Positions 42,574-60,297 of a DNA stretch of 64,000 nt are shown piece after piece. The notes under the pieces were generated by a model. The model was not told the origin of the DNA, made no database searches, and was given only the letters and a program-made list of their open reading frames with translations. Position 1 is the stretch's first letter. Every line of letters starts with the position of its first letter. The position numbers and the translations under genes were made by a program. Origin of the DNA: Terriglobia bacterium (GTDB taxonomy: Bacteria; Acidobacteriota; Terriglobia; Terriglobales; Acidobacteriaceae); assembly GCA_020073165.1 (NCBI GenBank), contig JAIQFP010000003.1:124001-188000 (forward strand). Direction: 5' to 3'.

Positions 42574-44364
42574 ATGAAAGTCATCGGCTACTTTCTCTTT
42601 GTACTTCTTCTGGGAGTTTGGAGTGTTCCGGCTAAGGCAGAGAAAAAGAGCAGCGCGCCAACACCCGGTTTGGCCGAACTGGAAAAAATGGCGGCCCGCT
42701 TTGCGCCTACGCCCATACGTGTGGACACATCGAAACTCTCCCTTGGGGACCAGCAGGCCCTGGTCAAGCTGATCGAAGCCAGCCGCATCCTGAATGACCT
42801 TTTTATGAAGCAGCTCTGGGGCGGCGATGTGGCCCTCTATGAGAAGCTGAAAAAAGACAACAGTCCGCTCGGCAAGGCCCGCCTGCACTACTTCTGGATC
42901 AACAAGGGGCCGTGGTCTGACATCGACGAATACAAAGCCTTCCTGCCGGGCGTTCCACCGCGCAAGCCCAAGGGCGCGAACTTCTATCCCGAAGATATGA
43001 CAAGCGAACAGTTCGAGCACTGGGTCGCGGCAATACCGGAAACAGAGCAGGAGCAAGCGAAAAGCTTCTTCACCGTGATTCGCCTGAGCGCAGGTTCTGG
43101 TGGCCAGCGCCGTGACCCTTTCGGAACCGTTCCCTACAGCCAGGAATACAAAGACGACCTTGCCCGGTCCGCAAGCCTACTCCGCGAGGCGGCAGCTCTG
43201 ACGGATAACGAATCGCTGAAGAAGTTTCTTACCCTCCGCGCTGACGCTTTTCTCTCCAACGACTATTACGAAAGCGACATGGCGTGGATGGATCTGGACG
43301 CGCCGCTCGACATTACCATTGGTCCCTATGAGACTTACAACGACGAGCTCTTCGGCTACAAGGCGGCCTACGAGTCCTATGTGAACCTGCGGGATGATGC
43401 AGAGACCGTCAAACTCTCCGCCTTTTCCCAGCACCTGCAGGAAATCGAGAACAATCTGCCCATTGATCCGCAGTACCGCAATCCCAAGCTGGGCGCAGCC
43501 GCACCCATTCGAGTGGTGGACGAGATCCTGGCCGCCGGCGACGGCGCCCACGGCGTGCAGACCGCCGCTTACAATCTCCCCAACGATGACCGAGTGGTGA
43601 ACCAGAAGGGCAGCAAGCGTGTCATGCTCAAGAATGTGCAGGAGGCCAAGTTTCGCAGCGCGCTGCTGCCCATCGCCCGCCGCGCACTGTCAAAACCGGC
43701 GATGGTGGATGTCAGCTTCGATTCATTCTTCACCCACACTGTCGCCCACGAGCTCATGCACGGCTTGGGGCCGCATCAGATCAGGGTTTCGGGGCGCGAC
43801 ACCAGTCCCCGGATCGAGTTGAAGGATCTTTACGGCGCCATCGAAGAAGCCAAAGCTGACGTTACTGGTCTGTTCGCGTTGCAGTACATGATGGACCACG
43901 CGGTCGAGATGGGTCTAAGCAAAATTCTACCGTCCGATGAAGCTGCCCAACGCCAACTCTATACCACTTATCTCGCTTCCATCTTTCGCAGCGTGCGCTT
44001 TGGGCTCGAAGACGCCCACGGCAAGGGCACAGCCATGCAGTTCAATTTCCTGATGGATAAAGGAGCTTTTGTCCAGCACGAGGATGGCACCTTCACCGCA
44101 GACATGGCCAAGATCAAACCAGCCGTTGTCGAACTCGATCACGACCTCCTCACCCTGGAGGCGGAGGGCGATTATGCCGGAGCGAAGAAGATGCTTGATG
44201 AGCTCGGCGTAGTCCGCCCGGCCCTTAAACGAGTGCTCGACAACTTGCGGGGAATTCCCACCGACATTGAACCGTTGTTTGTGACCGCCGACCAATTGGC
44301 TCCGGCGCCGAAAGCGGAGCCCGTGAAGAAGCCGAGTGGTAAGAAGAAAGGACGCCGGGACTAG
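42574..44364 (+). CDS. Exported M49-like (dipeptidyl-peptidase III-type) zinc peptidase
   Basis: This 596-residue secreted protein has a signal peptide (about 1-22). The zinc site is HELMH (His392-His396), with a Glu pair in EEAKAD (424-425) as the third-ligand region. The surrounding HELMHGLGPH and IEEAKADVTGLFALQYM resemble the DPP III/M49 family and its bacterial relatives. Classical DPP III has a hexapeptide HExxGH; some bacterial members have a pentapeptide, as here. DPP III removes dipeptides from peptide N-termini. The ATG at 42574 follows GGAGGTGAAG. The last three bases of the gene overlap the stop of the convergent phosphatase gene. Confidence 0.75.
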   Translation: MKVIGYFLFVLLLGVWSVPAKAEKKSSAPTPGLAELEKMAARFAPTPIRVDTSKLSLGDQQALVKLIEASRILNDLFMKQLWGGDVALYEKLKKDNSPLGKARLHYFWINKGPWSDIDEYKAFLPGVPPRKPKGANFYPEDMTSEQFEHWVAAIPETEQEQAKSFFTVIRLSAGSGGQRRDPFGTVPYSQEYKDDLARSASLLREAAALTDNESLKKFLTLRADAFLSNDYYESDMAWMDLDAPLDITIGPYETYNDELFGYKAAYESYVNLRDDAETVKLSAFSQHLQEIENNLPIDPQYRNPKLGAAAPIRVVDEILAAGDGAHGVQTAAYNLPNDDRVVNQKGSKRVMLKNVQEAKFRSALLPIARRALSKPAMVDVSFDSFFTHTVAHELMHGLGPHQIRVSGRDTSPRIELKDLYGAIEEAKADVTGLFALQYMMDHAVEMGLSKILPSDEAAQRQLYTTYLASIFRSVRFGLEDAHGKGTAMQFNFLMDKGAFVQHEDGTFTADMAKIKPAVVELDHDLLTLEAEGDYAGAKKMLDELGVVRPALKRVLDNLRGIPTDIEPLFVTADQLAPAPKAEPVKKPSGKKKGRRD

Positions 44365-45134
44365 GGCCTGTTTCGCGGAACCTCTGCTGCCCGCGTCAGC
44401 GCCAGGGCAGTCACGTCATCATGGGTCGGCGGGTTGCGCATGAACCGCTGCACGTCGTCCAGAATCGATACGCACAGCTGTTTTGCTGATTCTGTCTTGG
44501 CGCGCTGCAGACTGCTTTTCACTCGCGCTATGCCAAATTCATCTGCTTTGAACCTGCCCTCGACAATCCCTCGCGACACCACCAGGAGCGCCGCTCCAGG
44601 CTCGATAGCAACCATGGGCGCATCGCAGGTGGCATGGGAGAACAGCCCGAGCGGCAGCCCGGTGGCCGTCAATTCCGTCACCCCGGTGCTGTGCAACAAC
44701 AGTCCGGGGGTGTGGCCCGCGTTGAAATAGGAAACTGTGCCCAGGCTCTCGTTGTAGCACCCCGCAAACGCCGGACAGGAGCGCACGCCGCCTCCCTCCG
44801 CATGCAAAATCGTGCGGTTAAGGTGGATGCAGAGCTGAATCATGGCCTCCGCCTCGTTCACTTCTTGCCTGGCGAACAATTCCGCCGCCTCGGTGCGGAA
44901 GGTCTTTTGTGCGGCGGTGACAATCTCGCGATTGTCGTCGTGTCGTCCAGCCACGTCCAGCAAGCCGAAAAGCACACGGTTCGGGCTGACCCGGATAAAG
45001 TCATAGAAATCGCCCGCCATGCGATAGCCGTAGTAGATGGCCGCCAGTTCCGCATCCGCCAGCTCCGGGACATTGGCGTGTACTGGCTCGAGCGAGGCCG
45101 CCGCTGGTTTTTCGTTTTTAAATAGAAAGCGCAT
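44361..45134 (-). CDS. PP2C-type (SpoIIE/RsbU) serine phosphatase, stand-alone
   Basis: This 257-residue protein consists almost only of a SpoIIE phosphatase domain: MAGDFYDFIRV, LFGLLDVAGRHDD, SYFNAGHTPGLLLH, TGLPLGLFS and the final HDDVTALALTR. The metal-binding Asp in DFYDF, the Asp in LLDVAG and the Asp pair near the end are present. SpoIIE-type domains often sit behind a sensor domain; there is none here, and the chain begins with about 30 polar residues. No anti-sigma or STAS gene is adjacent. The ATG at 45134 has a weak ribosome site. Confidence 0.82.
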   Translation of the reverse strand: MRFLFKNEKPAAASLEPVHANVPELADAELAAIYYGYRMAGDFYDFIRVSPNRVLFGLLDVAGRHDDNREIVTAAQKTFRTEAAELFARQEVNEAEAMIQLCIHLNRTILHAEGGGVRSCPAFAGCYNESLGTVSYFNAGHTPGLLLHSTGVTELTATGLPLGLFSHATCDAPMVAIEPGAALLVVSRGIVEGRFKADEFGIARVKSSLQRAKTESAKQLCVSILDDVQRFMRNPPTHDDVTALALTRAAEVPRNRP

Positions 45135-45240
45135 CGGGGTAAGCGGACGGGCAGAAGTTAACACAGAAGGAATCGGGCGGCAATGGCACCTCAGAACGTA
45201 CCGCGCGAAGAGGTTTCGCAGGGCAGTTTCCGGGCGATGT

Positions 45241-45265
45241 GGCCGGTGGGCCGCCGGCGCTACTG
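45241..45265 (+). repeat. Interspersed intergenic repeat B, copy 3
   Basis: It contains GGGCCGCCGGCGCTAC (45248-45263), one base different from the core at 39277-39292. It starts GGCCGG, like copy 1, and ends one base before the stop codon of the adjacent minus-strand gene. Confidence 0.55.
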
Positions 45266-45266
45266 C

Positions 45267-46703
45267 TCACTCCCCGTAGCGGCTGATCAGATACTTGCCC
45301 ACTTCGGCTTCCAGCTGGCCGTAATCGGAGTGGATGGTGCTGCGCAGGGCTGCTTCGGTCGAACTTCCTTCCGCTAGCCTCTCCAAAATGCGCCGCAAGT
45401 CGCTCATCCCGTATGTGTCGTTAACGTATTCTGCCGCGGCCAGGGACTCATCGTAGGCCAGCACCGCTTCCATCGGCGAGAAACGCATAAAGCTTCCTTC
45501 CAAATCGTTGAAGGGAATCTCATGCTGCTCCTGGAACAGCTGCGCAAGCCGTTGCCCGTGGGAAGCAACCGATTTCGGTTCCATCAGCTGCGCAATCCCT
45601 TCGTGCAGCCACTGCGGGCAGCGTCCCCCGGAAATCTGATTGATAAAGGAGTGCGTCAACTCATGCTTGAGCACGCGGGCCAGTTCCGAGTTCACGGAAT
45701 CCACGCCTTCTACCGGGATGCGCAGCTTGCCATCATTGACCGCGCCGCTCCAGGAGGGGGCTTGCGTGACGTCGAAGAACCCCTGGTCGGTGTAGAGGAT
45801 GACCGGAATGCTGCTGCGCGGGGCGACCCCAAACTCTCGAACCAGGTCGTCGTATTCTGACTCCAGCGTCTCCACCAGCGCCCGCCGCAGCGAGTCCGGC
45901 GTCTGCTTCCCTTCGTAGCGCAAGGTGAAGTGGCTGCTTTCATTCTGGGTGAAGTCCGCTTCCGCAGCAGCCTCGCGCTCCGCCTTCGCCAGGTACTGCT
46001 GGATCACCGGGTCAGGTTTTAGCTCCAGCGAGCGTTTCCAGGTACGAATCGCATCACGATTGCGATCGGCAGCGAACTGAGCATACCCCAGGACGGCCAG
46101 CGCATCGGCCGAATCTGGCGCGCTGCGCACGGCGCGCTCGGCGTAGGGGAGCGCCTCGGCGGCATTCCCCGTGCGTACCAGCAGCGCCGCGTAGTAGTTC
46201 AGGATAGTCGCATTCTGCGAATCAAAACGCAGTGCAGCTTCAAAATAACTCCGGGCCTTGCTGAAATTGCTGTGTTCGAATTCATGCTTGCCGGCGACGA
46301 AATATCCGGTGGCAGCCGCGTTGGCATCCCCTTTTTGCTCGAGCGCGCCTAGCGCTTCGCCATCGACCTTGCCCCCCTGAACAATCTTGTCGGCGAGCCC
46401 GGCTTCGTTCTTCAGGTTATCGCTGGGCGCGAATGCTGGAACATCTTTGGAACCATTGCCTTCTGCGCCCGAAGAGGCGTACTGCGGAGGAACGCCGCCA
46501 GATTCTATGCGCTCCACTGAAGCCTTGGGAATGGCGTAGGTATCGTCACCGATGTCGTACTCGATACGGCCGGCATTTTCGCGTACCTGGTCCGCCCAGA
46601 TGGTGCGGCCGTTCTTAAGGTGGATTACCTCAGCCCGCGCGCACACCGGTACCAGGGCCAGAAACCAGACCATCGGCAATAAGAAGATGACAGATAGCCG
46701 CAT
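45267..46703 (-). CDS. Exported TPR protein with gluzincin (peptidase MA-like) domain
   Basis: This 478-residue protein has a signal peptide (about 1-24, VIFLLPMVWFLALVPVCARA), a short beta region (IHLKNGRTIWADQVRE) and three TPR motifs (about 135-240, for example AALRFDSQNATILNYYAALLVRTGN). A zinc-peptidase-like domain follows (about 255-478), with KHELTHSFI as HExxH and WLHEGIAQLMEP supplying the third-ligand Glu. This is the peptidase-MA-like architecture common in Acidobacteriota. Proteolysis has not been shown for most members. I used the ATG at 46703; a TTG at 46721 adds six residues and neither has a good ribosome site. It is divergent from the M1-like gene. Confidence 0.8.
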   Translation of the reverse strand: MRLSVIFLLPMVWFLALVPVCARAEVIHLKNGRTIWADQVRENAGRIEYDIGDDTYAIPKASVERIESGGVPPQYASSGAEGNGSKDVPAFAPSDNLKNEAGLADKIVQGGKVDGEALGALEQKGDANAAATGYFVAGKHEFEHSNFSKARSYFEAALRFDSQNATILNYYAALLVRTGNAAEALPYAERAVRSAPDSADALAVLGYAQFAADRNRDAIRTWKRSLELKPDPVIQQYLAKAEREAAAEADFTQNESSHFTLRYEGKQTPDSLRRALVETLESEYDDLVREFGVAPRSSIPVILYTDQGFFDVTQAPSWSGAVNDGKLRIPVEGVDSVNSELARVLKHELTHSFINQISGGRCPQWLHEGIAQLMEPKSVASHGQRLAQLFQEQHEIPFNDLEGSFMRFSPMEAVLAYDESLAAAEYVNDTYGMSDLRRILERLAEGSSTEAALRSTIHSDYGQLEAEVGKYLISRYGE

Positions 46704-46741
46704 TGAGGCGCATTCTAGCAACGGAGGGGATGTAAGCGTAG

Positions 46742-49336
46742 GTGACCGAAGTACTCAGGAAAAGTCGAACTGGTGCAGGGCTCATCCTTGTCCTGGCAGG
46801 CTGCGCCCTTCTGGCGGCGGGGCAGTCGGCACAGAATTCCGTGGGAGAGACCAAGGCGGCGCCGTCCGCACCAGCCCGTTCTGCCGAGACTCTGTACAAC
46901 CAGTTGCGCACCGTGGGCCTGGACTCGGCTCGGGTTTATCGCATTCGCGAGGTCTCTTTCGACCGAGCCGCCCTCCACATTAGCCTGGACGATGGAACCA
47001 TTGCCTTCACCCAGGACGTGGCCGGACGCGTGACCGGCGCCTTCTTTGAGGGAGAGGGCGAAGTTCTGTTGATTCCGCCCAACCAGGTTGAACGCGCCTC
47101 CATGGCGCTGTTTACCGGGGCTGCCATTCTGGAGGAGAGATTCCTTACTGCGTACTTCCGGTTTAATGACAACACCTTCGCCGAATTGCAGCACTCCCTT
47201 CGACCTGCCGACAACGCCCAGGAATTCGTTTCCCAGTGGAACCCGACTGCCCAGAATCTGGCAGAGGACGACGCCCTGAGGCTGCTGGTGAGCTTCAGTC
47301 GAACACTGCCAGTCGCAGGCGGTCAGGCGCAACCTCCAGATCCGCCAACCGGCCCGGCAGCCGAAGATCGCATGCTGCACGCCCGCCTTCAGGGCCGCAA
47401 GTTGGGGACTTTCGATCTTTACTATGACTCCCTGGCGCCCGAGCAAGTCAGGGCCGGTCAACTCAAAACGGTCGAGGGTGAAAGCTATTACGACGTCTGG
47501 ACCTCGGTTGCCTTGAACCGGAAGGGAGAGCAGCACGAAGACGTCAGTGGGGTCACCGGGGAAGAGGGGTTCACCGGCCCCGTGCGCATCTCGCGCTATA
47601 GCATCCGCACCCAGGTGATGCCCCCCACCCGACTGAACGTGGAAGCCTGGGTGCAACTTGACGTTCGTCAGGGCGGCCAACGGGCTGTCCTGTTCGAACT
47701 CTCTAGATTTCTCCAGATCACACAGGTGGATGCCGACGGCCATCCTGTCGAATTCATCCACAACCCAGCTCTCGAGGGTACGCAGCGCGCACGTCGCGGC
47801 AACGACATTGTCGCAGTGGTATTCCCCCGTCCGCTGCAGCCGGGACAAGAGACGGTCTTGCACTTCGTCTATGGAGGTGAAGTGCTGTCTGAAGCGGGAG
47901 GAGGCCTGCTCTACGTAGGAGCGCGCGGCACATGGTATCCCAACCTCGGGCTCGTCATGTCCAACTTCGACCTGGAATTTCATTACCCCCCAGGTTGGAC
48001 TCTGGTTGCCACCGGAACGCGTGCGGGAGTACCTGCTGGCGAGCCATCTCCCAATATGCCGGAAGGAGAACAGGTTTCCCGCTGGGTATCTGAGCGCCCC
48101 ATCCCAATTGCGGGATTCAACCTCGGCAAATACGAGCGAGCCGTCGCCCACGCCGGAGACGTCACCATTGAAACCTACGCTGCCTCCGGCGTGGAGCGCG
48201 CTTTCCCCAAAGGGCCCCCCGAGGCCGTGATTCCGGCACTGCCGACCGCTCCTGGTACCCGCGAGACACCGATCGTCATTGTTCCGCCTCCGCCTTCTCC
48301 GGCTCGCAATGCCCAGACCGTGGCTGACCGATCGGCACGCGCCATCGAGTTCTACGCCCGCCGCTTTGGCCCCTATCCCTACAGCGAGTTAGCTCTGACC
48401 CAGATGCCCGGCGGACTCAGCCAAGGGTGGCCGAGCTTGATTTTCCTTTCCAGTCTGTCCTTCCTTTCGCCGGTCGAGAGGGGTCGTTTGCACATGAGCC
48501 CGCTGGACGTCACCCTGAACCAGATCATTGTTGCCCACGAAACCGCTCACCAGTGGTGGGGCGATCTGATCACATGGAGCGGCTATCGCGACCAATGGAT
48601 CATGGAAGCCTTGGCGAATTACAGTTCCTTGATGCTGCTCGAGTCCGACGATCCATCTCAGTTTCACGCCGTCATGGAGAAATTTCGCGATGATCTCCTG
48701 CACAAGAACAACCAGGGAGTACCGCTCATGGATGCCGGCCCCGTGACGTTAAGCTCGCGGCTCTCCTGTTCGCAGTTTCCTGTCGGGTATGAGGCCATCA
48801 GTTACGGCCGCGGCACCTGGCTCCTTCACATGTTGCGCAATATGATGCGCGATGCTGAACGGAAGAGTGGTGCGAACCCAGCCGTTTCCGGAGCCGGGAC
48901 CCAGGACGAACCCTTCGTTCGTGCGCTTCACAAACTGAGAGATCAGTACCAGGGAAGGTCCCTCACCACCCGCGATCTGGTGCGCGTCTTCGAAGAGGAG
49001 TTACCGCCCTCGCTTTGGTACGACGGTCGCAAGTCGCTGGACTGGTTTTACCAGGGATGGGTGAACGGCACCGCGGTCCCGCGCTTCGATTTGCAGGGTG
49101 TGAAGTATACAGATAAAGTGGGCTCTACTACAGTCACTGGAACGATCCTCCAGAAGTTCGCTCCCAAGGATCTGGTGACCCCAGTTCCCCTCTACGCTGT
49201 GCTGTCAGGGAAATCGGTATTTCTGGGTCGCGTCTTTGCCGACGGTCCAGAAACCCAATTCCGTCTCACCGCCCCAGCCGGCACACGAAAGGTCGTGCCT
49301 GATCCCGACCACACCCTGCTTTCGCGGGCCAAGTGA
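46742..49336 (+). CDS. M1-family aminopeptidase-like lipoprotein
   Basis: This 864-residue exported protein has a probable lipobox (LAGC, Cys at about residue 20). A beta-rich N-terminal region is followed by the gluzincin site HETAHQWWGD (His599, Glu600, His603), with Glu622 in IMEALANYSS giving the HExxH-x18-E of M1 enzymes. The GxMEN exopeptidase loop expected before HExxH is replaced by MPGGLSQGWPS. Substrate binding may therefore differ, and aminopeptidase activity is uncertain. The C-terminal part (about 680-864) is helical then beta. The start is a GTG at 46742, 12 bases after GGAGGGG. It overlaps nothing and is divergent from the TPR peptidase. Confidence 0.8.
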   Translation: MTEVLRKSRTGAGLILVLAGCALLAAGQSAQNSVGETKAAPSAPARSAETLYNQLRTVGLDSARVYRIREVSFDRAALHISLDDGTIAFTQDVAGRVTGAFFEGEGEVLLIPPNQVERASMALFTGAAILEERFLTAYFRFNDNTFAELQHSLRPADNAQEFVSQWNPTAQNLAEDDALRLLVSFSRTLPVAGGQAQPPDPPTGPAAEDRMLHARLQGRKLGTFDLYYDSLAPEQVRAGQLKTVEGESYYDVWTSVALNRKGEQHEDVSGVTGEEGFTGPVRISRYSIRTQVMPPTRLNVEAWVQLDVRQGGQRAVLFELSRFLQITQVDADGHPVEFIHNPALEGTQRARRGNDIVAVVFPRPLQPGQETVLHFVYGGEVLSEAGGGLLYVGARGTWYPNLGLVMSNFDLEFHYPPGWTLVATGTRAGVPAGEPSPNMPEGEQVSRWVSERPIPIAGFNLGKYERAVAHAGDVTIETYAASGVERAFPKGPPEAVIPALPTAPGTRETPIVIVPPPPSPARNAQTVADRSARAIEFYARRFGPYPYSELALTQMPGGLSQGWPSLIFLSSLSFLSPVERGRLHMSPLDVTLNQIIVAHETAHQWWGDLITWSGYRDQWIMEALANYSSLMLLESDDPSQFHAVMEKFRDDLLHKNNQGVPLMDAGPVTLSSRLSCSQFPVGYEAISYGRGTWLLHMLRNMMRDAERKSGANPAVSGAGTQDEPFVRALHKLRDQYQGRSLTTRDLVRVFEEELPPSLWYDGRKSLDWFYQGWVNGTAVPRFDLQGVKYTDKVGSTTVTGTILQKFAPKDLVTPVPLYAVLSGKSVFLGRVFADGPETQFRLTAPAGTRKVVPDPDHTLLSRAK

Positions 49337-49569
49337 GTGATCGTTACCACTTCAGGAAACATTTCCGGCATTTTCGCTCTGCCCCTCCCAAAACGACACC
49401 TGCAAGCTTGCAGCTACCCCCACTCGAACACCGGCTCCATCATAGCCACCACAGCATCGCGAAGAATGAAGCATTTGTGTGCGGTCGGCTCGTGGACCTT
49501 CAGTCCACACCTTCACGCTGCCGGTTGGAACCCCGTGTGCAGCGAGATTCACGCGCTCGGAGGTGAGCC

Positions 49570-50016
49570 GTGGCTTGCAGCGATACCTGGGAACTTGACA
49601 CCATCGCCGAGTCGGACTCGCGACTCACCGATCCCGAAGCGGTTGGATGCCCGACTATTCTGCTCGTTGAGGACGAGGACTTCGTGCGCGAGGTTACCTG
49701 CGAGGTTCTGCAATCCGCCGGCTACCGGGTACTAAAAGCTCGGAACGCCGTCGAAGCCGCAGTCGCCTTCCGCGGGCATCGCGAACAGGTACGATTGCTC
49801 ATCACCGATGTGGTCATGCCCGGCCAGAATGGCCGCGACCTGGCACGCGAACTGCGCTCCGTCTGTCCCGGTTTAAAAATCCTCTTTGTTTCCGGATACC
49901 CCGATAATGTGATTGCCAGAGACGCAGGCGAAGAGCGGGCATCGTTCTATCTCCCAAAACCATTTTCCGCCCAGTCTCTCGTGCACGCCGTCACAGCTAT
50001 TTGGTGCAACTCATGA
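49570..50016 (+). CDS. Single-domain response regulator (receiver protein)
   Basis: This 148-residue protein has about 28 polar residues and then one receiver domain: ILLVEDEDF (acidic pocket), LLITDVVMPGQNG (phospho-Asp), FVSGYPD (Ser in the Thr/Ser position) and LPKPFSAQSL (Lys). There is no output domain. It is of the type that often forms the last domain of hybrid kinases or acts as a phosphate relay. The GTG at 49570 follows GGAGGTGAGCC. It is convergent with cheB but separated by only 18 bp, so a role near chemotaxis is possible but unproven. The gap 49337-49569 before it holds no credible gene. Confidence 0.82.
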   Translation: MACSDTWELDTIAESDSRLTDPEAVGCPTILLVEDEDFVREVTCEVLQSAGYRVLKARNAVEAAVAFRGHREQVRLLITDVVMPGQNGRDLARELRSVCPGLKILFVSGYPDNVIARDAGEERASFYLPKPFSAQSLVHAVTAIWCNS

Positions 50017-50034
50017 TCGCGTATGGACGACTGG

Positions 50035-51123
50035 CTAAGCGCGCTGCCGGTAACGGGTAGCTTGTAGAATCTGCTCTGGAATGCACGGCAGGGATACCAC
50101 GCGCTGCAACACCCCGGCTTCGGCGCAGGAACGTGGCATACCATATACCGTGCAACTGGCTTCATCCTGACCCACTGTAAGCCCACCTTGGCGCGCGATC
50201 GCCTGCATCCCCTGCAATCCGTCAGCGCCCATGCCGGTCATAATGACTCCCATGCTCAGCGCGCCGAACACCTCCGCCACCGAGGTCATCATAACGTCTA
50301 CCGAAGGAATATGGGGGGTATTGTCCGGAGTGTTTGAAAGCCGGATGGCGACCTTCGAGGACGTCCGTCGTTGCACGGTCATCTGCTGTCCGGCGGGTGC
50401 GATATAGACGGTCGAGGCCTGGACTGGTTCATCATGCACGGCCTCCCGCACCGACACCTTGCAAAGCGCATCCAGGCGACGCGCAAACGGCCCGGTGAAC
50501 CCTGCCGGCATGTGCTGCACGATCAAAATGCCCACCGGCAGGTCGGCAGGCAGCATCGGCAGGATCTGCTGTAAGGCTTTCGGTCCGCCGGTTGATGTGC
50601 CGAGCGCGACCACGCCGGGTGGCACATGATTGGTATTACAGGCACTGAGTTTGACCTCTGTGTGCGGCGGCTGGGCAATTCTCCCCATCGGCTTCCGCCG
50701 TCCGCTTTCGGCTGCAGCTTTGATTTTCTCCACCAGTTCGTCGCGGATCTTGATGATATCGAGCGACACGTAGGACAGCTGCTTGGGCACATAGTCGAAT
50801 GCGCCATTGGCCAGTGCGTCCAGCGTGGTTTCCGCCCCCTCCTGAGTCAGAGAACTCACCATGATCACCGGACGTGGCGCATCCTGCATGATGCGTTTCA
50901 GCGTCTCCAGACCGTTCAGTTTGGGCATCTCCACGTCCAGAGTGACCACGTCCGGCTGCAGCGCCACAATCTTCTCCAGGGCCTCGAGGCCGTTCTGGGC
51001 AGTCCCGCTCACCCGGAGGCCGGGGTCCGACTCGATCATCCGGACGAGCGCTGTTCGCATAAATGCACTGTCGTCGGCCACCACCACACGAACCAAGCGC
51101 GAGTTGTCATGGCTCCCGTTCAT
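50035..51123 (-). CDS. cheB: Chemotaxis protein-glutamate methylesterase CheB
   Basis: This 362-residue enzyme has a receiver domain (about 10-130; VVADDSAFMR, the phospho-Asp in VVTLDVEMPKLNG, YVPKQ with the Lys). A methylesterase domain follows (about 170-360), with the catalytic Ser in GTSTGGPKAL, His in VQHMPAGFTGPF and Asp in GMGADGLQGM. It demethylates chemoreceptors when phosphorylated. It overlaps the HDOD gene upstream by 4 bp. Its usual partner cheR is only a fragment in the neighbouring chimera, and no chemoreceptor, cheA or cheW is in the window. Confidence 0.94.
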   Translation of the reverse strand: MNGSHDNSRLVRVVVADDSAFMRTALVRMIESDPGLRVSGTAQNGLEALEKIVALQPDVVTLDVEMPKLNGLETLKRIMQDAPRPVIMVSSLTQEGAETTLDALANGAFDYVPKQLSYVSLDIIKIRDELVEKIKAAAESGRRKPMGRIAQPPHTEVKLSACNTNHVPPGVVALGTSTGGPKALQQILPMLPADLPVGILIVQHMPAGFTGPFARRLDALCKVSVREAVHDEPVQASTVYIAPAGQQMTVQRRTSSKVAIRLSNTPDNTPHIPSVDVMMTSVAEVFGALSMGVIMTGMGADGLQGMQAIARQGGLTVGQDEASCTVYGMPRSCAEAGVLQRVVSLPCIPEQILQATRYRQRA

Positions 51124-52016
51124 TTCGGCCGGTACAGCAGGCTCACCAAGCGGTGGACCTCGTCCAGGTACCCTTCCAGTTCAAAGGTGAAGCGCGCCCA
51201 GTCGAAAGTCTCCAACGTGGGACATTCCTTCAGCAGCAACGCGAACCCGGGTTGCTCGAGAAAGTTGACTTGCCGTTCCTCGATAAATCCGTGCCCCAAG
51301 CCGTTCATGCGGCAGAGCAGGTCGGAGAGCGACACCAGGGCCAGCAGTGCGCGGTGGTGGGTCGCGTTCTCCAACTGATGATGGCTGCCCACGACTTCCA
51401 CCAACTCTGGCGTCAAGCCCCATTGCTCTGCCAGCCGCCGACCACTCTCGCAGTGGGTCAGGCCCATGGTGCGTAGTTCTGCTTCGTGCAACGGGATCCG
51501 GTGTGTTCGCGCCAGTTCCATCGCCCGTCCAAACTCACCGGGTAAAATCCACAAATTCACGATAATCCCGAGATCATGCAGCAGCCCCGCGAGGTAGGCC
51601 TTGCCATGATCCGAAAACCCAATTCCCCGGGCAAAGCGGCGGCTCACCAGAGCGCATCCCAGGGAATGTTCCCAGAACACGGTGGGATCGATGCCACCTT
51701 GATCGGCGGGTGCCAGCTTTAGCACGGAGCATGACAGTGCTATGTCCCGCATGCGCTGCATGCCCAGTGCCACCACCGCGCTACGCACGCTATCAACCCG
51801 CTGCCAGCGCCCAAACAGAGGCGAATTCGCCATGTGCAGGCACTGCGCCGCCAGAGATTTGTCCTGCGAAATCAGAACCACGGCGCCTTGCACGTCCAGG
51901 CTTTCCAGCGGCTGTTCGAAGTAGCGCAACAGGGGAGCCAGAATCACCGGGATGCTGGGCATTTGCTCCAGCCCTTCCAATCTCCGCAGCAGTACTTCCT
52001 TGGGTTCTTCGCTCAT
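51120..52016 (-). CDS. HDOD-domain signalling protein
   Basis: This 298-residue protein has an HDOD domain (about 15-210: MPSIPVILAPLLRYFEQP, VVLISQDKSLAAQCLHMANSPLFG, ALGMQRMRDIALSC, YLAGLLHDLGIIVNLW). The HD pair in LLHDLG remains, but the full set of HD-phosphohydrolase metal ligands is not obvious. HDOD proteins are found in motility, cell-cycle and second-messenger contexts, often without known catalysis. It lies between the flgE-cheR chimera (7 bp upstream) and cheB (4-bp overlap), so the three are co-transcribed. Confidence 0.85.
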   Translation of the reverse strand: MSEEPKEVLLRRLEGLEQMPSIPVILAPLLRYFEQPLESLDVQGAVVLISQDKSLAAQCLHMANSPLFGRWQRVDSVRSAVVALGMQRMRDIALSCSVLKLAPADQGGIDPTVFWEHSLGCALVSRRFARGIGFSDHGKAYLAGLLHDLGIIVNLWILPGEFGRAMELARTHRIPLHEAELRTMGLTHCESGRRLAEQWGLTPELVEVVGSHHQLENATHHRALLALVSLSDLLCRMNGLGHGFIEERQVNFLEQPGFALLLKECPTLETFDWARFTFELEGYLDEVHRLVSLLYRPK

Positions 52017-52023
52017 GTCGCAC

Positions 52024-52482
52024 CTAGCGGTTCACCTGCCGCTTATCAGATTTCACGTAAGCTGTGGCGGACGGCAAGTGCACCAGACGAAAGTCCTCGC
52101 TGATGCCATACAACGACTCGGAATGCCCCAGGAACAGGTACCCATGGGCGAGCAGGTTGTTGTAAAAATGCTGGATCACCCGCCGTTTCGATAGTCCGTC
52201 GAAATAGATCAGCACGTTGATGGCGACATCGGTTGCGACCCCGGTGGGATCGACGTTGCCCTGGGTGAATAGTCCGGGCATCGAACTCACGCCCACGCCC
52301 GCACCCAGTTGCACGGGGTCCCCGGAGCCGCTTGACCCGATGGTTTGATAGAACAAGTCGCGGAACAAGGTGCGGGTGTCCTTGTACCCCACCGTGTTCA
52401 GGTTGGCCAGGTTGTTGGCAATGGCCGACAGCGCGGTGGACATAGCGGTCAGCCCGGAAAGCGGAATAGAAAAAGTTGGCAT
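52024..52482 (-). CDS. Chimeric gene: N-terminus of hook protein FlgE fused in frame to C-terminus of CheR
   Basis: Residues 1-88 are the start of a FlgE/FlgG-type hook or rod protein (SIPLSGLTAMSTALSAIANN, LNTVGYKDTR, FTQGNVDPTGVATDVAI). From residue 89 the text is the end of a CheR methyltransferase (NVLIYFDGLSKRRVIQ, LAHGYLFLGHSESL, FRLVHLP). In intact FlgE the DVAI segment continues into a glycine-rich GFF motif; in intact CheR, NVLIYF follows a Cys-Arg. Both parent genes are therefore cut, with the join at about 52218. The hook domain body and the SAM-binding part of CheR are gone, so neither function can remain. It could be a true deletion or an assembly join. The ATG overlaps the flgD stop (TAATG). 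Confidence 0.85.
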   Translation of the reverse strand: MPTFSIPLSGLTAMSTALSAIANNLANLNTVGYKDTRTLFRDLFYQTIGSSGSGDPVQLGAGVGVSSMPGLFTQGNVDPTGVATDVAINVLIYFDGLSKRRVIQHFYNNLLAHGYLFLGHSESLYGISEDFRLVHLPSATAYVKSDKRQVNR

Positions 52483-52757
52483 TAGTGCGCTCCTTGGGTG
52501 GCTTGGGTTGAATTCCCGGTCGCGGGTCCTTGCAGGCCTTCCTGCAATATCTCGCGAATCTGGATCAGTTGATCGAGCGTGTTGAACTGCACCAGTTGGC
52601 CGACGAACTGGTTGGGATCCACCGGATCGAGCGGGCTCTGGCTTTTCAACTGCGCCATCAGCAACTGCAGGAACATGTCATTGGCGTCACTGGCCGCATT
52701 GGAACTGCTTGCGGTCGCGCCCGCCGTGTTTGTAATCGCCGCCGGATTAACGTTCAT
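52482..52757 (-). CDS. flgD: Flagellar hook-capping protein FlgD, short form
   Basis: This 91-residue protein contains the FlgD N-terminal domain (about 25-72, MFLQLLMAQLKSQSPLDPVDPNQFVGQLVQFNTLDQL-type sequence) and little else. FlgD caps the growing hook and is usually about 200 residues, with a C-terminal beta domain. Here the chain ends after a short Gln/Thr-rich tail, so it is either a naturally short form or truncated. GAGGAGGACCC precedes the ATG. It lies between fliK (22 bp) and the flgE-cheR chimera (1-bp overlap). Confidence 0.85.
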   Translation of the reverse strand: MNVNPAAITNTAGATASSSNAASDANDMFLQLLMAQLKSQSPLDPVDPNQFVGQLVQFNTLDQLIQIREILQEGLQGPATGNSTQATQGAH

Positions 52758-52779
52758 GGGTCCTCCTCACTGCTGCTCT

Positions 52780-54552
52780 TCAAGCGTGTACATTCAGCCC
52801 AGTCCGGGTATCGCCGGCGAGCTTGATGTCGCCGGGATCCGCTGCAGAAACGCCGAAGCCGGGAAGTCTCGGTGCCGCCCCCCCTCTTTGCTGGAACGAG
52901 CGGGATTGGGAATCAGCCCCTGCGGAAAATCCCGTGTCAAAACCGGGGCCGTGTTCGAGAAATCGGATATTGTCCAGGTGCAGGTCGTGCTGATGGAACT
53001 TCGTCTGCAAACCAGGAATCTCGGCTGTCAGAAGCGTGCGGAGATCGCCCTTCTCACTGCCCACCGCCAGTCCGACCTGGCTGTCGCGCACCACGGTGTG
53101 GACTTCGACGTTGCCAAATGCCAGAGTACGCAACCCGATATGCATCTCTGACTGCCCCACGCGATCCACGATACGGGCGACGTTGACTGCGTCAGTTGCC
53201 GGAAGTAGATTCGGGTTTGCGTCTGCCGGTGCCAGTGGGTGGCTCTTCATGGCCGGCGAAAGTGAACCCGAATCCGCGATGCCCCGGTTGGTCAGAGACA
53301 GAGGCGGTACCGTTATAAAAACTTCTCTGTCGACGCTAACGGCCTCGCTACCGTGCGAGTTCTGCAGAGCCACTACCGGCGTCGCCATCGCCCGTTCCTT
53401 GTCGGATGGCGTCTTCACGGCGGTGTTGGCCGGGCGTGTGTCAACCTGACTTTGTCCCGGTGAGATATCCGCTTCGTGATGTTCTGACCCACCTCCGTCT
53501 GTCTGGGGTTTTTCCGAAGCTTGACCCGGTGTTGGGACGACAGTCGCGTCATGTGACGAAATCGGCAGGGGAAGGTCACGCGCGGGATGACCCACTGGAG
53601 TAGGGTTTGCGAAGGCATGCCCAACCATGACCGTCCGCAAAATGGGTTCGCCCGGCTTCTGCTCTGGCTGAATGCTGACCGGTGTGGTTTCTTCGCCGAT
53701 CATCGCATCCGCAGGGCGGTGTATGACACCCGTCTGTGGAGCCGGCGATGCACCTTGCGCTTCGACCTCGACCTGTGCAGGCATTTCCTCTGCTGCGGCT
53801 GGGCGCGGTACCGACTCGGGCCCACTCTTGTTCTCCATGGCGGGAATCGGGGACGAAACACTCTCCGTTGGTCTCGGGAGATGCGCACTTTCTTCCACCG
53901 TACTGGAGACAAAAGGTGACGCGTTTTCGGCGGTCACACAAACGCCAGCGGGTTCTGCACTCGCGGTGGATACTGCCGGTTGCGTGCATGCTGCAGGCGG
54001 TTGCGTGGATGCGGTGAGTGGTGGCAAGGGAACATCTGGGGTCGCGCTCGATTCAGGGTTTCCGAGATCGGGCCCGGACGCCGGGGCTGGCAGCGTATCC
54101 GCCGGTGCCGCCTTGAACTCGTTCGGGAGTGATACCACTTGTTCCGCCGCACCGCCTGCAGGCCCGCCCCGTTCCACGCTGACCAATGGCTGGAGGCTGG
54201 CCTCACTCGTTTCCTCCGCAGGCGCTCGCGTCGGCTCGATAGAGGGGCCTGCCATCACCGGCCCCAGCACATTGCCCACGTCAATCACCGGCACGGGCAT
54301 TACTGGAACGGTCAGGTTGAGAGCAAGAATCGCTTCCGCGTTTTTCTGCTCCTCTTCTGGATTCGGGATGTCCAAGTCCGGGTCAGCACCCAGCTTCACC
54401 GCTGTTGCGGGTGGTTGTGATTCACTTCCCACGGCGTTCAGCAGCACTTGCGCAAATGCGTTCTCGCCCTGGCTGCCTTGGTTCGCCGGATAAGCCGCGG
54501 CAATCGCCACATTGGCAAGATCGGCGTCTGCTTGAATTGGAACCGCAATCAC
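52780..54552 (-). CDS. fliK: Flagellar hook-length control protein FliK
   Basis: This 590-residue protein has the usual FliK layout. A long low-complexity region rich in Pro, Ala, Thr, Glu and Val (about 40-440) is followed by a compact C-terminal Flg_hook domain (about 460-540, MHIGLRTLAFGNVEVHTVVR, VGLAVGSEKGDLRTLLTAEIPGL, LHLDNIRFLE). FliK measures the hook and switches export specificity through FlhB. It is the first gene of the remaining flagellar fragment; no other flagellar structural gene lies upstream. The 279 bp between it and the carboxylase gene hold nothing I can identify. Confidence 0.85.
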   Translation of the reverse strand: MIAVPIQADADLANVAIAAAYPANQGSQGENAFAQVLLNAVGSESQPPATAVKLGADPDLDIPNPEEEQKNAEAILALNLTVPVMPVPVIDVGNVLGPVMAGPSIEPTRAPAEETSEASLQPLVSVERGGPAGGAAEQVVSLPNEFKAAPADTLPAPASGPDLGNPESSATPDVPLPPLTASTQPPAACTQPAVSTASAEPAGVCVTAENASPFVSSTVEESAHLPRPTESVSSPIPAMENKSGPESVPRPAAAEEMPAQVEVEAQGASPAPQTGVIHRPADAMIGEETTPVSIQPEQKPGEPILRTVMVGHAFANPTPVGHPARDLPLPISSHDATVVPTPGQASEKPQTDGGGSEHHEADISPGQSQVDTRPANTAVKTPSDKERAMATPVVALQNSHGSEAVSVDREVFITVPPLSLTNRGIADSGSLSPAMKSHPLAPADANPNLLPATDAVNVARIVDRVGQSEMHIGLRTLAFGNVEVHTVVRDSQVGLAVGSEKGDLRTLLTAEIPGLQTKFHQHDLHLDNIRFLEHGPGFDTGFSAGADSQSRSFQQRGGAAPRLPGFGVSAADPGDIKLAGDTRTGLNVHA

Positions 54553-54831
54553 AAAATATTTCTCGCGCTGAGGATGTCAGCCGTACCGGTAGGAGCATCT
54601 TGACGACCAAAGACCCAGACGCGCACCTGGGAGTCTCAACCGATTGAAGCAGAACAGAAACTCAGCATTTGCGGAGGAATGAAGACTTGGAGGATAGCGT
54701 GCGACACCGGGCGGTTGGGCAAGCCTTGCCTACGAGACTCGGCAAGGACGGCAAGCTATCGCGTGAGCGGTTCAGACACCGGAGCGCTCGCGGCCACTGC
54801 TCGGGAAATCCTGTGCCCAATAGCCAATGGG

Positions 54832-56382
54832 CTACAGCGGTATATTCCCATGCTTCTTCGCCGGGTTCTTGTCCCGCTTGGTCTCCAGCATCTCCAGCGC
54901 CTGGATCAGCTTTTTACGGGTTTCGTGGGGTTGGATGACTGCGTCCACATAGCCGCGGTCGGCCGCGACGTAGGGGTTGGCGAAGCGGTCGCGGAATTCT
55001 TCGATTTTGCGCCGGCGCATCTCTTCGCGGTTGGCCGCATGTTCCAGGTCCCGCTTGTAGACGATGTCCACCGCGCCCTCGGGGCCCATCACCGCGATTT
55101 CGGCGGTGGGCCAGGCATAGTTCACGTCGGTGCGGATGTGCTTGGACGCCATGACGCAATACGCTCCGCCGTAGGCCTTGCGCGTAATGACCGTCACCTT
55201 GGGCACCGTGGCCTCGGCAAAGGCGAATAGCAGCTTGGCGCCGTGCTTGATGATTCCTCCGTACTCCTGGTTTGTGCCGGGGAGGAATCCGGGGACATCT
55301 TCGAAGGTTACCAATGGAATATTGAAGCAGTCGCAAAAGCGCACGAAGCGCGCGCCCTTGATGGACGCATTGATGTCGAGTGTGCCAGCCAACACTGCCG
55401 GCTGGTTGGCGACGACCCCAACCGAGCGGCCGTTGAGCCGGGCGAATCCCACCACGATGTTCCTGGCATAGTGCTCCTGCACCTCGAAGAAATAGCCGTC
55501 GTCCACCACGCCGTGGATCACGTCCTTGATGTCGTAGGGAAGGTTTGATTCCGCCGGCACCACCTTGTCGAGCGCGGTGTCGGCGCGGTCCACGGGATCG
55601 GTGCAGGGCTTACGCGGCGGGTCATCCAGATTGTTGGACGGAATAAAGCTGAGCAGCTCGCGAACCATGGAGAGGCACTCGGCATCGTCGTGCGCCATGA
55701 AGTGGGCCACGCCTGAGGTCTCGTTGTGGGTCATGGCTCCGCCGAGCTGGTCTTTGGTGACTTCTTCGTGGGTGACGGTCTTGATCACATCAGGCCCGGT
55801 AATGAACATGTACGAAGTCTTATCCACCATGAGGATGAAGTCAGTAATGGCGGGCGAGTAGACGGCGCCCCCGGCGCAGGGGCCCATGATGGCAGAAATC
55901 TGCGGCACCACGCCGCTGTAAAGCGTATTGCGCAGGAAGATGTCGGCGTATCCGGCCAGCGACATCACGCCTTCCTGGATGCGAGCACCGCCGGAGTCGT
56001 TCAGTCCAATAACCGGTGCGCCCATCTTGGCGGCAAGATCCATGATCTTGACGATCTTGGCGGCGTTCGTTTCCGAGAGCGAGCCGCCGAACACGGTGAA
56101 ATCCTGGGCGAAGACGAAGACCAGGCGGCCCTCGACGCGGCCGTAGCCGGTGATAAAGCCATCCCCGTAGTACTTCTGGTCGGCCATGCCGAAGTCGGAG
56201 CAGCGGTGGGTAACCAGCTTGTCGGTCTCTTCGAAGGTGCCTTCGTCGAGCAGAAACTCGATGCGCTCACGGGCCGACATCTTGCCTTCTTTATGCTGCC
56301 GCTCCTGGCGCTGCGGCCCGCCACCCGCCTCGGCCAGATGGTCGCGCTTCTTCAACTCTTCCAGCTTCTGTTCCAAGTCCAT
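54832..56382 (-). CDS. pccB: Acyl-CoA carboxylase beta (carboxyltransferase) subunit, propionyl-CoA type
   Basis: This 516-residue crotonase-fold carboxyltransferase moves CO2 from biotin to an acyl-CoA, most likely propionyl-CoA. Features include [19 protein letters not shown], the first oxyanion hole in [13 protein letters not shown] and [15 protein letters not shown]. In the second half come [26 protein letters not shown] and [13 protein letters not shown]. The C-terminal [22 protein letters not shown] and KHGNIPL endings are characteristic of PccB. The biotin carboxylase/carrier alpha subunit is not in the window. Acetyl-CoA or methylmalonyl-CoA as substrate cannot be ruled out by eye. 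Confidence 0.9.
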
Positions 56383-57185: not shown

Positions 57186-57615
57186 CTAAACCGCGCCTTT
57201 GTCGTAGGCAGCGGGCTCACCCCAGTGCTCCAGTTCCTTGCCGGTCGGATCGAGCCATACCAATTCGCGATTCTCCGGGATGGCCTGGCGGTACACCATG
57301 ACGTTCTGGGAAACAGAAAAGTATCCGATGTCCCGCGGGTTGTAATACTCGATCGGGAAAGTCCACGCCGTCCTGGCGGCCGACGTCATAAAGAACGCAG
57401 ATGTTGGGATGTTGCAGGCCGGAGATGGCCCCGGCCTCGCGCTCAATCCGGGCGCGGAGATCCGGGTTCGAACTGAGGTGTGCGGGAAGGACTTTGATAG
57501 CGACGGTGCGGTCCAGCCGCGTGTCGCGCGCCTGGTAGACCTCCCCCATGCCGCCCGCGCCCAAGGGCGATTGGATTTCGTAGGGACCGAGCTTTGTGCC
57601 AGGGGTCAGGGTCAC
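57186..57615 (-). pseudogene. Remnant of a serine/threonine kinase-TolB gene with internal deletion and frameshift
   Basis: From the GTG at 57615 the frame encodes the kinase N-lobe (LGPYEIQSPLGAGGMGEVYQA, VAIKVLP, HPNICVLYDVGRQDGVDF). It then loses sense. The continuation, in another frame (57186 to about 57390), reads like the propeller part of the neighbouring paralogues (GYFSVSQNVMVYRQ, RELVWLDPTGKELEHWGEPAAY). The catalytic loop, activation segment and most of the propeller are missing, so about 500 codons were deleted relative to its siblings. It overlaps the upstream kinase gene by 4 bp (GTGA), the same arrangement as the other copies. Confidence 0.8.
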
Positions 57616-60297
57616 TTCTTTAGCTCCGCGTCCCAGTTCAAAACGAAAGTCAGCGGGGCAGGACTTTCATTGACCGAGTTGGTCAAGAGAAACCGCCCCT
57701 CTCGGGTAACGTCATACCCGCTGCCCGCCGAGGAGGAACGGATGCCGGTCTGAAACAAGACTTTAGGTGCGCCCACGTTTACGGAATCCTTGTTGGCCTG
57801 CACCTCGACGCTGATCAACCTCTGCCTGGCATCGAGATAATAAAGGCGCTTGCCGTCCGCGCTCCATACCGGTTGCGTTCCCCCTTCCAGCGATACCTGG
57901 TACTTAGCGCCTCCGCTCGGAAAGTGCGTCAGGTAAACTTCAGTGCTTCCCGCTTCGCTCGATTGGTATGCCAGCCAGTCATTGGAACCCGGCATCAAGC
58001 GAGCGTTCGACTGCCAGTCTACCCGGTCGAGCACCGGGAGAGGCGTTGTGCCCCCGATCAACGGAAGTGCCTTCAGCGCGCCATAGCCGGGCGCGGCGGC
58101 GGACTCTTCCTCATACAGAAGCCATTTCCCGTCGCTCGAGACGTCGGTAGCCACGCCATCGGTCTGGGTTGCGATCACCGCCTGCTGCGGCCGAGAACCG
58201 TCCGCTGGCCTCTGATAAATCTGCATCGGGCCATCATTGGGAGTGTAGGAGAAATAGATTGTCCGGCCGTCGGCTGACCAGACGGCATTGTCGGCATTCT
58301 TGCCTCCGAACGAGAGCCGGGAGCGCGTACCCTTCGCTAGGTCCAGTACCCAGAGATCGGGATTGGGTTTCACCATCGGGACCGCTAATTTCTTGCCATC
58401 CGGTGAGAGTCGCGACTCGTTGTAAACGCCAGGTTCAGAGACTTGCGATTCAACTTTCCCGGTGCCGTCCACCCATACCTGGCGCTCCCCTCCAGTCCCG
58501 GTTCCCGGCTGGTACACCATTGCCTTGCCCTCTGCCACGGAGAACACGGAACTGGCCACCAGGTATGCCGTCTGCGGCCTGGACCGCTTCCCCGGAGAGC
58601 GTGCCGTTCGGCGGGTCAAACCTCTGCGCTACCAGCGTTCCATTCCGCCCCACCAGGAGCCAACCCGCCGCGTACTTAGGGGTAAAGTACCGGCCACGCA
58701 GCAAGACCTGGTCCTGCTTGCCGTCAACCGATGCAAAATGGACTTCATCGCGGTCGTCGCCACAGCCGCAAGGGCTATGCAGGTAAAGGAAATGCTTGCC
58801 ATCGGGCAAAAGCGATGGCCACCGGTCTGAGTCCTGGCCGTTCTTCGGTACCGGCGTGATCCTGGTCGGGGTTCCTCCCTCAGCCGAGACCCGCATGATG
58901 GCACTGTTGGAGCTGGGCGCGAACAGGATCAGGTTCGAACTCCCCCAAGTCCCGCCCCGCCCGTTCAGAGCATCGCAGATAGCGACGGGCGCCCCACCGT
59001 TTGCATCCATCCGCAACATTTTTCCGTTCGCAAAAAACCCGATGGCTTGGCCGTCGGGCGACCAGAACGGCAGGAATGCTCCCTCTGTCCCTGGCAGCTC
59101 TATCGCATCCAGCTTGTCCATCGAACGTATCCAGAGAGAGGTCTTACCTTCCCGGCTGGCGACGAATGCCATTCGCGTTCCATCCGGAGACAGGGCCGGT
59201 GGACCATTCCGGTTGAGTAGCGCAAAATGCGTACCTTCCGGCGGCAGCAAGGTCCCGCGCACCACTTGCGGCGCTTGTTGCCCGCGCCACCAAACCAAGA
59301 CCAGGGCCACGGCCAGGATCAGGGCCGTCGCGGCCAGCAGCCACTTGCCACGATCTGCTTTGCCCGCAGTCTGCCGTGACACAGTCTGCGGGTCCGTCCT
59401 TGCCATCCACGCCAGCTGCAGCTTCACGTCGTGTGCCGTCTGAAACCGGTCGTCGGGATTCTTCTCCAGGCAGTTGTGAATCGTCTGATCCAACGCCGCC
59501 GGGGTCGCCGGCTGCACCGCGCTGATCCGCTCCGGCTCTTTCTCCAGAATCGCCGTCAGCACGCTGAGTTGTGACTTCCCTTCGAACGCCCGCCGGCCCG
59601 TCACCATCTCGTACAGCACGCAGCCCAGACTGAAGATGTCGCTGCGAGCGTCCGCCTCTTGCCCCCGCAATACCTCCGGCGCCATGTACTGGAAGGTGCC
59701 CACCACAGTTCCCTTTTGCGTCAGCGCTCCCGCCGGCTTGCTCAGCACAGATAGGTTCATGGTCGGAGTAGAAGGCGTGAGCGGCCCTGCCTCTGGGGAG
59801 GCACTCGTGCCCAGGACCGCGGCCGCCGGCTTGGCCAGCCCAAAGTCCATGAGCTTCGCTCCGGACGCCGTGAGCATGATGTTTCCCGGCTTTAGATCGC
59901 GATGCAGAATCCCCGCCCGATGCGCCTTCTCCAGCGCTTCGCAGATCTGCACCCCATACCCCAGGACTTGCTTCAGCGGCAACGCCCCTTTTAGCAACCG
60001 GCAATCTAGGGTCTCACCTTCCAGATACTCCATGACGAGATAATCGGTGCCGTCCTGGCTCCCGACGTCGTAGAGATGACAGATGTTGGGATGGCTCAAC
60101 GAGGAAATCGCGCGTGCCTCGCGGTCGAAGCGCTGCTTGGCCTCGGGATTATCCGAGAGATGAGAAGGCAAGATCTTGATGGCTACCGAACGGTCGAGGC
60201 GAGTGTCGCGGGCGCGATACACCTCGCCCATGCCGCCTGCGCCCACCGCGCCGACGATTTCGTACGGCCCGAGTTTGGTGCCGGTGGCCAGACTCAT
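57612..60297 (-). pseudogene. Serine/threonine kinase with TolB-like repeats, broken by a frameshift near 58560
   Basis: The first frame from 60297 encodes a full Hanks-type kinase: GAGGMGEVY, Lys41 in VAIK, HRDLKPGN, DFGLAK and APE. A transmembrane helix (about 318-335, LLAATALILAVALVLVWW) and the first half of a WD40/TolB-like propeller follow (PPALSPDGTRMAFVA, FLPFWSPDGQAIGFF). Sense switches to the other frame near 58560, where LVASSVFSVAEGKAMVYQ continues the propeller to the stop at 57612. The total length is 3n+1, so one extra base explains it. Such receptors phosphorylate unknown targets. It may be a sequencing error or a recent null allele. ATGA overlap with the next upstream copy. 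Confidence 0.8.

Follow-up and report, generated by a model that had tools for sequence, protein, structure and literature searches.

An in-frame FlgE-CheR chimera as the probable scar of a 33.5-kb deletion in a flagellar cluster, with comparable scars in related genomes

Large deletions within flagellar gene clusters are known from Xanthomonas fuscans subsp. fuscans 4834-R, in which a single deletion of 33 kbp removed 34 genes (PMC3826837). Other flagellar genes are retained in this strain, as they are in the genome presented here, and related strains keep the cluster (PMC3826837). Partial flagellar sets across bacteria, such as that of the present genome, have been discussed as possible remnants of loss (PMC12199754). 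That paper counts genes, and its sections on partial sets describe no junctions, unlike the scar reported here; in its main text, neither "Acidobacter" nor "deletion" occurs. Lysobacter enzymogenes OH11, which is non-flagellated, likewise keeps flagellar genes without a flagellum, and its homologues of flagellar export components are reported to control twitching (PMC7277350). That case is reported as one of export parts in a new role, not as a deletion chimera. CheR, as in the present chimera, is one part of the CheR-TPR fusion proteins (PMC3447774). The terms "Acidobacteri", "lost" and "deletion" do not occur in PMC11095265, and no earlier description of in-frame flagellar deletion fusions was found in a search that took in part of the matching literature.

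The locus described here belongs to the source genome G000 (4,596,788 bases, 35 contigs, completeness 100, contamination 0.33), in which the beginning of flgE and the end of cheR form one small hybrid gene. This chimera is very probably a scar left by a single natural deletion, which took out about 33.5 kb from flgE codon 88 to a point 64 codons short of the cheR end. The genome used as a proxy for the ancestor is that of the nearest relative compared, G001, a metagenome-assembled genome of the same genus.

A sequence-only reading of the window (the whole stretch of 64,000 nucleotides that was analysed) had proposed an in-frame chimera of 88 FlgE and 64 terminal CheR codons, joined near 52218. 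All three elements hold: there is one open frame of 152 codons, both halves are found by Pfam and by alignment to G001, codon 89 (AAC) fits both genes, and the alignment places the join in four letters compatible with either of them (Table 1). On the alignment, the flgE letters run as far as ...GCCATCAAC and the cheR letters start at CAACGTGCTG. Pfam gives only Flg_bb_rod (E 3.1e-9, residues 9-34) and, at residues 88-137, the CheR end (E 6.5e-11, profile positions 143-192 of 195); each passes its curated cut-off, and Flg_bbr_C was not found. The FlgE part is without its D1 and C-terminal parts, and the CheR part is without most of the SAM-binding domain; CheR_N and the SAM-binding domain, incomplete in the chimera, are both present in the intact CheR of G001. 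CheR is complete in CheR-TPR fusion proteins, whereas the chimera keeps only its last 64 residues. The flanks agree with the same reading, as the 1-base overlap with flgD, upstream of the chimera, and the 7-bp gap between its stop and the HDOD gene are found identically in G001 around intact flgE and cheR. An open frame by itself is weak evidence, because it is expected by chance one time in three.

Table 1. Features of the chimeric locus and its neighbours (positions in the window).
Feature	Position	Strand	Basis or remark
FlgE'-CheR' chimeric ORF, 152 aa	52024..52482	-	ORF list, Pfam
flgE 5' part (rod/hook N-terminal domain)	52220..52482	-	protein identity with G001 FlgE 87/87 over the first 87 codons
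junction CAAC	52216..52219	-	fits flgE and cheR of G001
cheR 3' end and stop	52024..52215	-	matches G001 CheR at 63/64 residues, counting codon 89
flgD	52482..52757	-	open; 1-base overlap with chimera
fliK	52780..54552	-	open; Flg_hook match just under Pfam cut-off
HDOD-domain gene	51120..52016	-	retained; 90% identical to G001
cheB	50035..51123	-	retained
inversion breakpoint (~145 kb), between fliK and fliJ	54749..54832	.	

At the join, the flgE and cheR sites of G001 share 38% identity over 48 bases, a value equalled or exceeded by 8% of in-frame pairs. With G001 as proxy, the microhomology between the two ends amounts to 4 bp; at least four bases in common are expected at about 1.6% of random joins by our own arithmetic, and the overlap agrees weakly with microhomology repair. 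Judged on G001, the join has no insertion sequence or long repeat, the two genes abutting directly, and no repeat of assembler length.

A conserved family of FlgE-CheR fusions was considered and rejected: although 47 of the 61 genomes searched (G000 included) match one or other half of the chimera, no convincing second case was found among them. The only strong alignment over both halves outside G000 (49%, in G028) belongs to an intact CheR, 68% identical to the CheR of G001 over residues 4-292. A few weak alignments to other rod-type frames (about 29-38% identity) extend past the join; that in G001, the only one of these inspected, is an FlgF/G-type gene.

In G001, the cluster is continuous from flgE to cheR between the same flanks. 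Two collinear pieces were obtained by blastn, one linking window positions 42723-52219 to C93:12000-21502 of G001 (84%), the other linking 52216-54749 to C93:55015-57553 (79%), and the 33.5 kb that separates them in G001 holds most of the flagellar and chemotaxis genes. Thirty-six chosen ORFs of this block were scanned with Pfam. They comprise chemotaxis and motor genes (whole CheR, CheA, CheW, MCP, MotB, MotA, CheX, a CheY-like receiver), FlbD, flagellin, FliD, a second flagellin-type protein at the flgL place, FlgK, FlgM, FlgI, FlgH and FlgA, FlgN and a rod-binding protein (both below cut-off), two rod proteins at the flgG and flgF places (named by position), an MshEN protein, a FliN-like protein, FliM and a sigma factor, and FlhA, FlhB, FliR, FliQ, FliP, FliO, FliN and FliL. 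One scanned ORF had no Pfam match, and the body of FlgE also belongs to the block. Genes for an OprB porin and a carbonic anhydrase lie within the flagellar-chemotaxis cluster of G001 (C93:26618-28913). In other relatives, flgE and the end of cheR share a contig at distances of 22 and 32 kb (G011 and G014), and flgE and the HDOD gene are 25 kb apart on one contig in G031.

No counterpart of the block was found elsewhere in the source genome beyond short or paralogue-level matches. In DNA comparisons with G000, in which 40 of 66-92 first-look candidates were scored, C93:30801-50000 gave a single 93-base match (73%); C93:21299-31000 gave the 204-base cheR end in the window and, beyond the window, stretches on contigs C13 and C4 (64-75%) and one 46-base stretch (83%); and C93:49801-60403 gave the flgE'-fliK piece and fliJ-fliG alone. 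The C13 and C4 stretches look like MCP, CheA and CheR paralogues. FlhA (PF00771), present in 26 of the 61 genomes, G001 included, is absent from G000, and none of flhA, fliC, motA and motB was found there. The loss of the FlgE body, of the SAM-binding part of CheR and of the genes between them, as first proposed from the letters alone, corresponds to the 33.5 kb present in G001. The retained flagellar genes flgD, fliK, fliI, fliJ, flgB, flgC, fliF and fliG are open.

A separate inversion of about 145 kb has split the cluster between fliJ and fliK. The fliJ-fliG segment is inverted at C7:30372-33215 of G000, 145 kb off on the same contig, with fliJ now at C7:32779-33225. The order from flgB to flgE is continuous in G011, G014, G031 and G022 (fliJ unmatched in G014, fliK in G022). 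The two outer neighbours of the breakpoints lie together on contig C99 of G001, 5.4 kb apart and in the orientation expected before the inversion, and the inversion ends showed no inverted repeat of more than 9 bases. On C99 (8235-11003), G001 also carries three short copies (46-76 bases) of the end sequence of a gene beside the inversion breakpoint. At C7:27049-33225 of G000, flgB, flgC, fliF, fliG, fliI and fliJ are open and a fliE-like frame was named by eye, in a genome where FliC, FlhA and MotA/B were not found. Further along the window (57186-58619), serine/threonine kinase and propeller genes, named by eye, seem broken: at 57217-57615, a 132-aa kinase start appears to give way to propeller-like sequence that lies in a different frame, and the stretch 57612-58619 resembles the end of another kinase gene in a displaced position.

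Comparable scars, block deletions between the cluster ends, were found in 14 other FlhA-less genomes of the family. Relatives of the HDOD gene (E 1e-30 or better) occur in 73 of the 398 family genomes, a number that also covers a second, more distant HDOD type belonging to a different chemotaxis locus; 44 of these 73 are without FlhA, several of them being incomplete (among the scar carriers, completeness is 82% in G100, 85% in G384, 86% in G340, 78% in G361, 76% in G375 and 76% in G396). Forty-eight stretches round HDOD genes, part of all HDOD places and including G038 from outside the family, were annotated; a second G006 stretch (L108) was left out of these and viewed separately. The cluster forms a single block in the FlhA-bearing G146 and G357, opening with an OmpR-type response regulator (reg1) and closing with motA-motB-...-cheR-HDOD-cheB; it is spread over two contigs in G166, and reg1 is turned round in G070:C13. 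The scars join flgC to motB (G006), fliG to HDOD (G027), flgH to cheR (G340), reg1 to motB (G384, G325, G283, G361, G375, G396), reg1 to HDOD at FGRW or FGGV (G080, G381, G184, G315) and reg1 to HDOD at another codon (G100). Pfam was run on five of these 14 ORFs (G325, G381, G080, G006, G340) and confirmed both halves in each.

Several other loci of these genomes deserve mention. Matches to fliA (sigma-28) and flgM (anti-sigma) are retained without FlhA in L137 (G199), L132 (G268) and L139 (G353). In G016 (L110, 10009-10734), the first 141 residues of a flagellin (80% identical) stand beside HDOD, adjoined by an opposite-strand fragment of a flagellar regulator. G070 carries two flagellar gene sets, on C5/C13 and on C22 (L122, L134, L169, L170); the HDOD and MotB of the second set group with genus g7, which suggests a flagellar cluster transfer between genera.

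The reading frame is kept at every same-strand join that could be read. Seventy loci, FlhA-bearing genomes included, were scanned for a 3'-truncated cluster gene followed directly, on the same strand, by a 5'-truncated one (gap of -150 to 90 bases, each match >45 bits, >20 residues missing). All 10 joins obtained are in FlhA-less genomes and all ten are in the same frame, none in another. Outside the scan cut-off, G325, G283, G361, G375 and G381 also have single open frames, and frame breaks lie within reg1 in G384, late in HDOD in G315 and late in the downstream HDOD in G396. Counted as distinct readable same-strand joins, 7 of 7 are in frame, for which chance gives (1/3)^7 = 0.0005 by our own arithmetic. 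Five further scars (G016, G007, G199, G268, G353) are opposite-strand, decayed or not readable; for example, fliC and a regulator are joined on opposite strands in G016, and the reg1 and motB pieces of G007 are in different frames. In-frame joins may be over-represented if out-of-frame ones decay past recognition; a faster decay of the latter would bias the count, yet would imply some constraint on the in-frame ones.

An intact recognised gene (cheR, HDOD or cheB) stands downstream of the join in 13 of the 15 carriers, the exceptions being G027 and G315, although cheB itself does so in only 10 of the 15. We propose that in-frame joins are favoured because the retained downstream genes stay expressed, an idea that the family-wide in-frame pattern supports but does not prove. 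The genes cheR, HDOD and cheB lie side by side in the FlhA-less G012, G028 and G038 (with a partial HDOD match in G038), and the retention of HDOD and cheB in FlhA-less genomes suggests that they matter without a flagellum.

Some identical joins recur in separate lineages. In the HDOD tree (49 rows), the MotB tree (19 rows after removal of a short one, with weak resolution) and the response-regulator tree (20 rows), carriers of the reg1-motB and reg1-HDOD joins stand interspersed with FlhA-bearing relatives. A single origin of the recurrent joins was rejected by AU tests, which refuse one clade per join type (MotB p 0.004, others far lower); the tests included a run on 13 MotB and 22 HDOD rows, with groups set by join and trees seen beforehand. 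The scattered pattern could also arise if the cluster had been regained, or if recombination had spread short deletion alleles. Scarred loci share the flank of FlhA-bearing relatives downstream in 13 of 16 cases and upstream in 8 of 16, match order being left out, so that flank sharing is no more than mild evidence against a move to another site by transfer. Repeat-mediated deletion was likewise rejected: at the reg1-motB and reg1-HDOD joins, the sites in G146, G357 and G166 are 31-42% identical, a level attained by 2.6-35% of pairs, and have 0 to 4 bp in common. This test covered those three genomes, the motifs not being found in G251 and G070, and it leaves the recurrence of identical joins without a repeat-based explanation.

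The ratio of MotB to HDOD divergence is 1.01 among reg1-motB fusions (15 pairs), 1.03 among FlhA-bearing relatives (6) and 1.10 in mixed pairs (24); the MotB of G283 is faster (2.05 and 2.12 when paired with G357 and G070:C22, which are closely related to it). Of 20 dN/dS comparisons within fusions, 8 are saturated and the remaining 12 give 0.03-0.14. These figures are no proof of selection after fusion, because they include the time before the deletion. It is possible, though rather unlikely, that in this family the flagellum has repeatedly been lost by deletion of one block whose ends are chiefly in-frame fusions, some recurring at the same codon and on average changed as little as intact genes, and that this is a source of chimeric signalling proteins. 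If so, the FlgE-CheR join would be a very young example of such proteins, and identical joins without repeats would require an undescribed directing mechanism, short deletion alleles spread by homologous recombination, or strong selection for exact fusions.

For the FlgE-CheR join itself, the sequence-only reading had left a choice between a deletion scar and an assembly join of two loci, and the former is supported by the block of G001, its absence from G000 and the lack of an assembler-length repeat at the join. Compared with G001, the FlgE part shows 20 synonymous and 0 nonsynonymous differences over 87 codons (dS 0.36), and the CheR part 10 synonymous and 1 nonsynonymous over 64 codons (dS 0.25). 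With 87/87 FlgE and 63/64 CheR residues identical to G001, a natural deletion of recent date is much more probable than a join made in assembly. With one change in about 337 nonsynonymous sites, and if the halves have been unconstrained since, the deletion would fall within roughly the final tenth of the branch that follows the split (our own rough estimate, a Poisson upper limit), which would make it recent relative to the separation of G000 and G001. For fliK, dN/dS is 0.43 against 0.0-0.22 in the other 11 comparisons with G001; relaxed constraint is possible there, but FliK linkers usually vary fast, so nothing is drawn from this value. Under the deletion reading, a break would have been rejoined by illegitimate (microhomology) repair or slippage, leaving a 152-aa product presumably without hook or methyltransferase function. 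Translation and transcription would run through the open chimera frame into the retained HDOD gene and cheB, and in-frame joins would be favoured over both out-of-frame kinds. The cell probably cannot build a flagellum, since no flhA, fliC, motA or motB was found; motility may have ended with this deletion, with the inversion or with something earlier.

It is decidedly improbable that two ends of one operon were misjoined by the assembler and that the 33.5 kb are merely missing from the assembly or bin. Such an error would suit a genome in 35 contigs, the lack of decay in either half and the presence of a second rearrangement only 2.5 kb away. Nevertheless, the ends have 4 bp in common and, judged on G001, no exceptional wider similarity, and 4 bp would not suffice for an assembler that joins by overlaps or k-mers, which needs far more. 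The join is, moreover, collinear, same-strand and in frame, the missing block was found in no contig of an assembly whose completeness is given as 100%, and the assemblies of relatives carry comparable scars. A mixed population, with the deletion in some cells of the sampled strain and the cluster kept in others, is compatible with the deletion and, while unlikely, would fit both the undecayed halves and the finding that a single epidemic of Xanthomonas fuscans yielded strains that have the cluster and strains that lack it (PMC3826837); against this, no trace of the intact block was found in the assembly among the 40 of 66-92 first-look candidates that were scored. That a new functional FlgE-CheR protein is maintained by selection is extremely improbable. 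The single amino-acid change across both halves is explained by recency, and the domains listed above as missing speak against function, as does the lack of a convincing second case among the 61 genomes, even though the MotB part of the response regulator-MotB fusions has on average changed no more than intact MotB. A single-sequence AlphaFold model of the chimera (mean pLDDT 41, very low confidence) counts neither for nor against such a function. Because some relatives show similar in-frame block losses, the best reading of the small hybrid gene is a scar left by deletion, not a working new machine.

The locus represents an early stage of flagellum loss, with both cut genes still unchanged, within a series of parallel losses in one family. 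It leads to a testable claim, namely that deletions within operons are filtered for frame because the downstream HDOD gene and cheB are still needed without a flagellum; and, if the recurrent response-regulator fusions are functional, losing one machine can create new regulators. In Xanthomonas fuscans 4834-R, a complete ISXfu2 stands at the site and motility was assayed (PMC3826837); in G000, the ends are directly joined into one frame and have 4 bp in common. A chimera like this is what a large deletion ordinarily produces, and deletions of this kind are known from Xanthomonas fuscans; what is unusual in G000 is that the join is direct and in frame, without an insertion sequence, and that it is one of a series.
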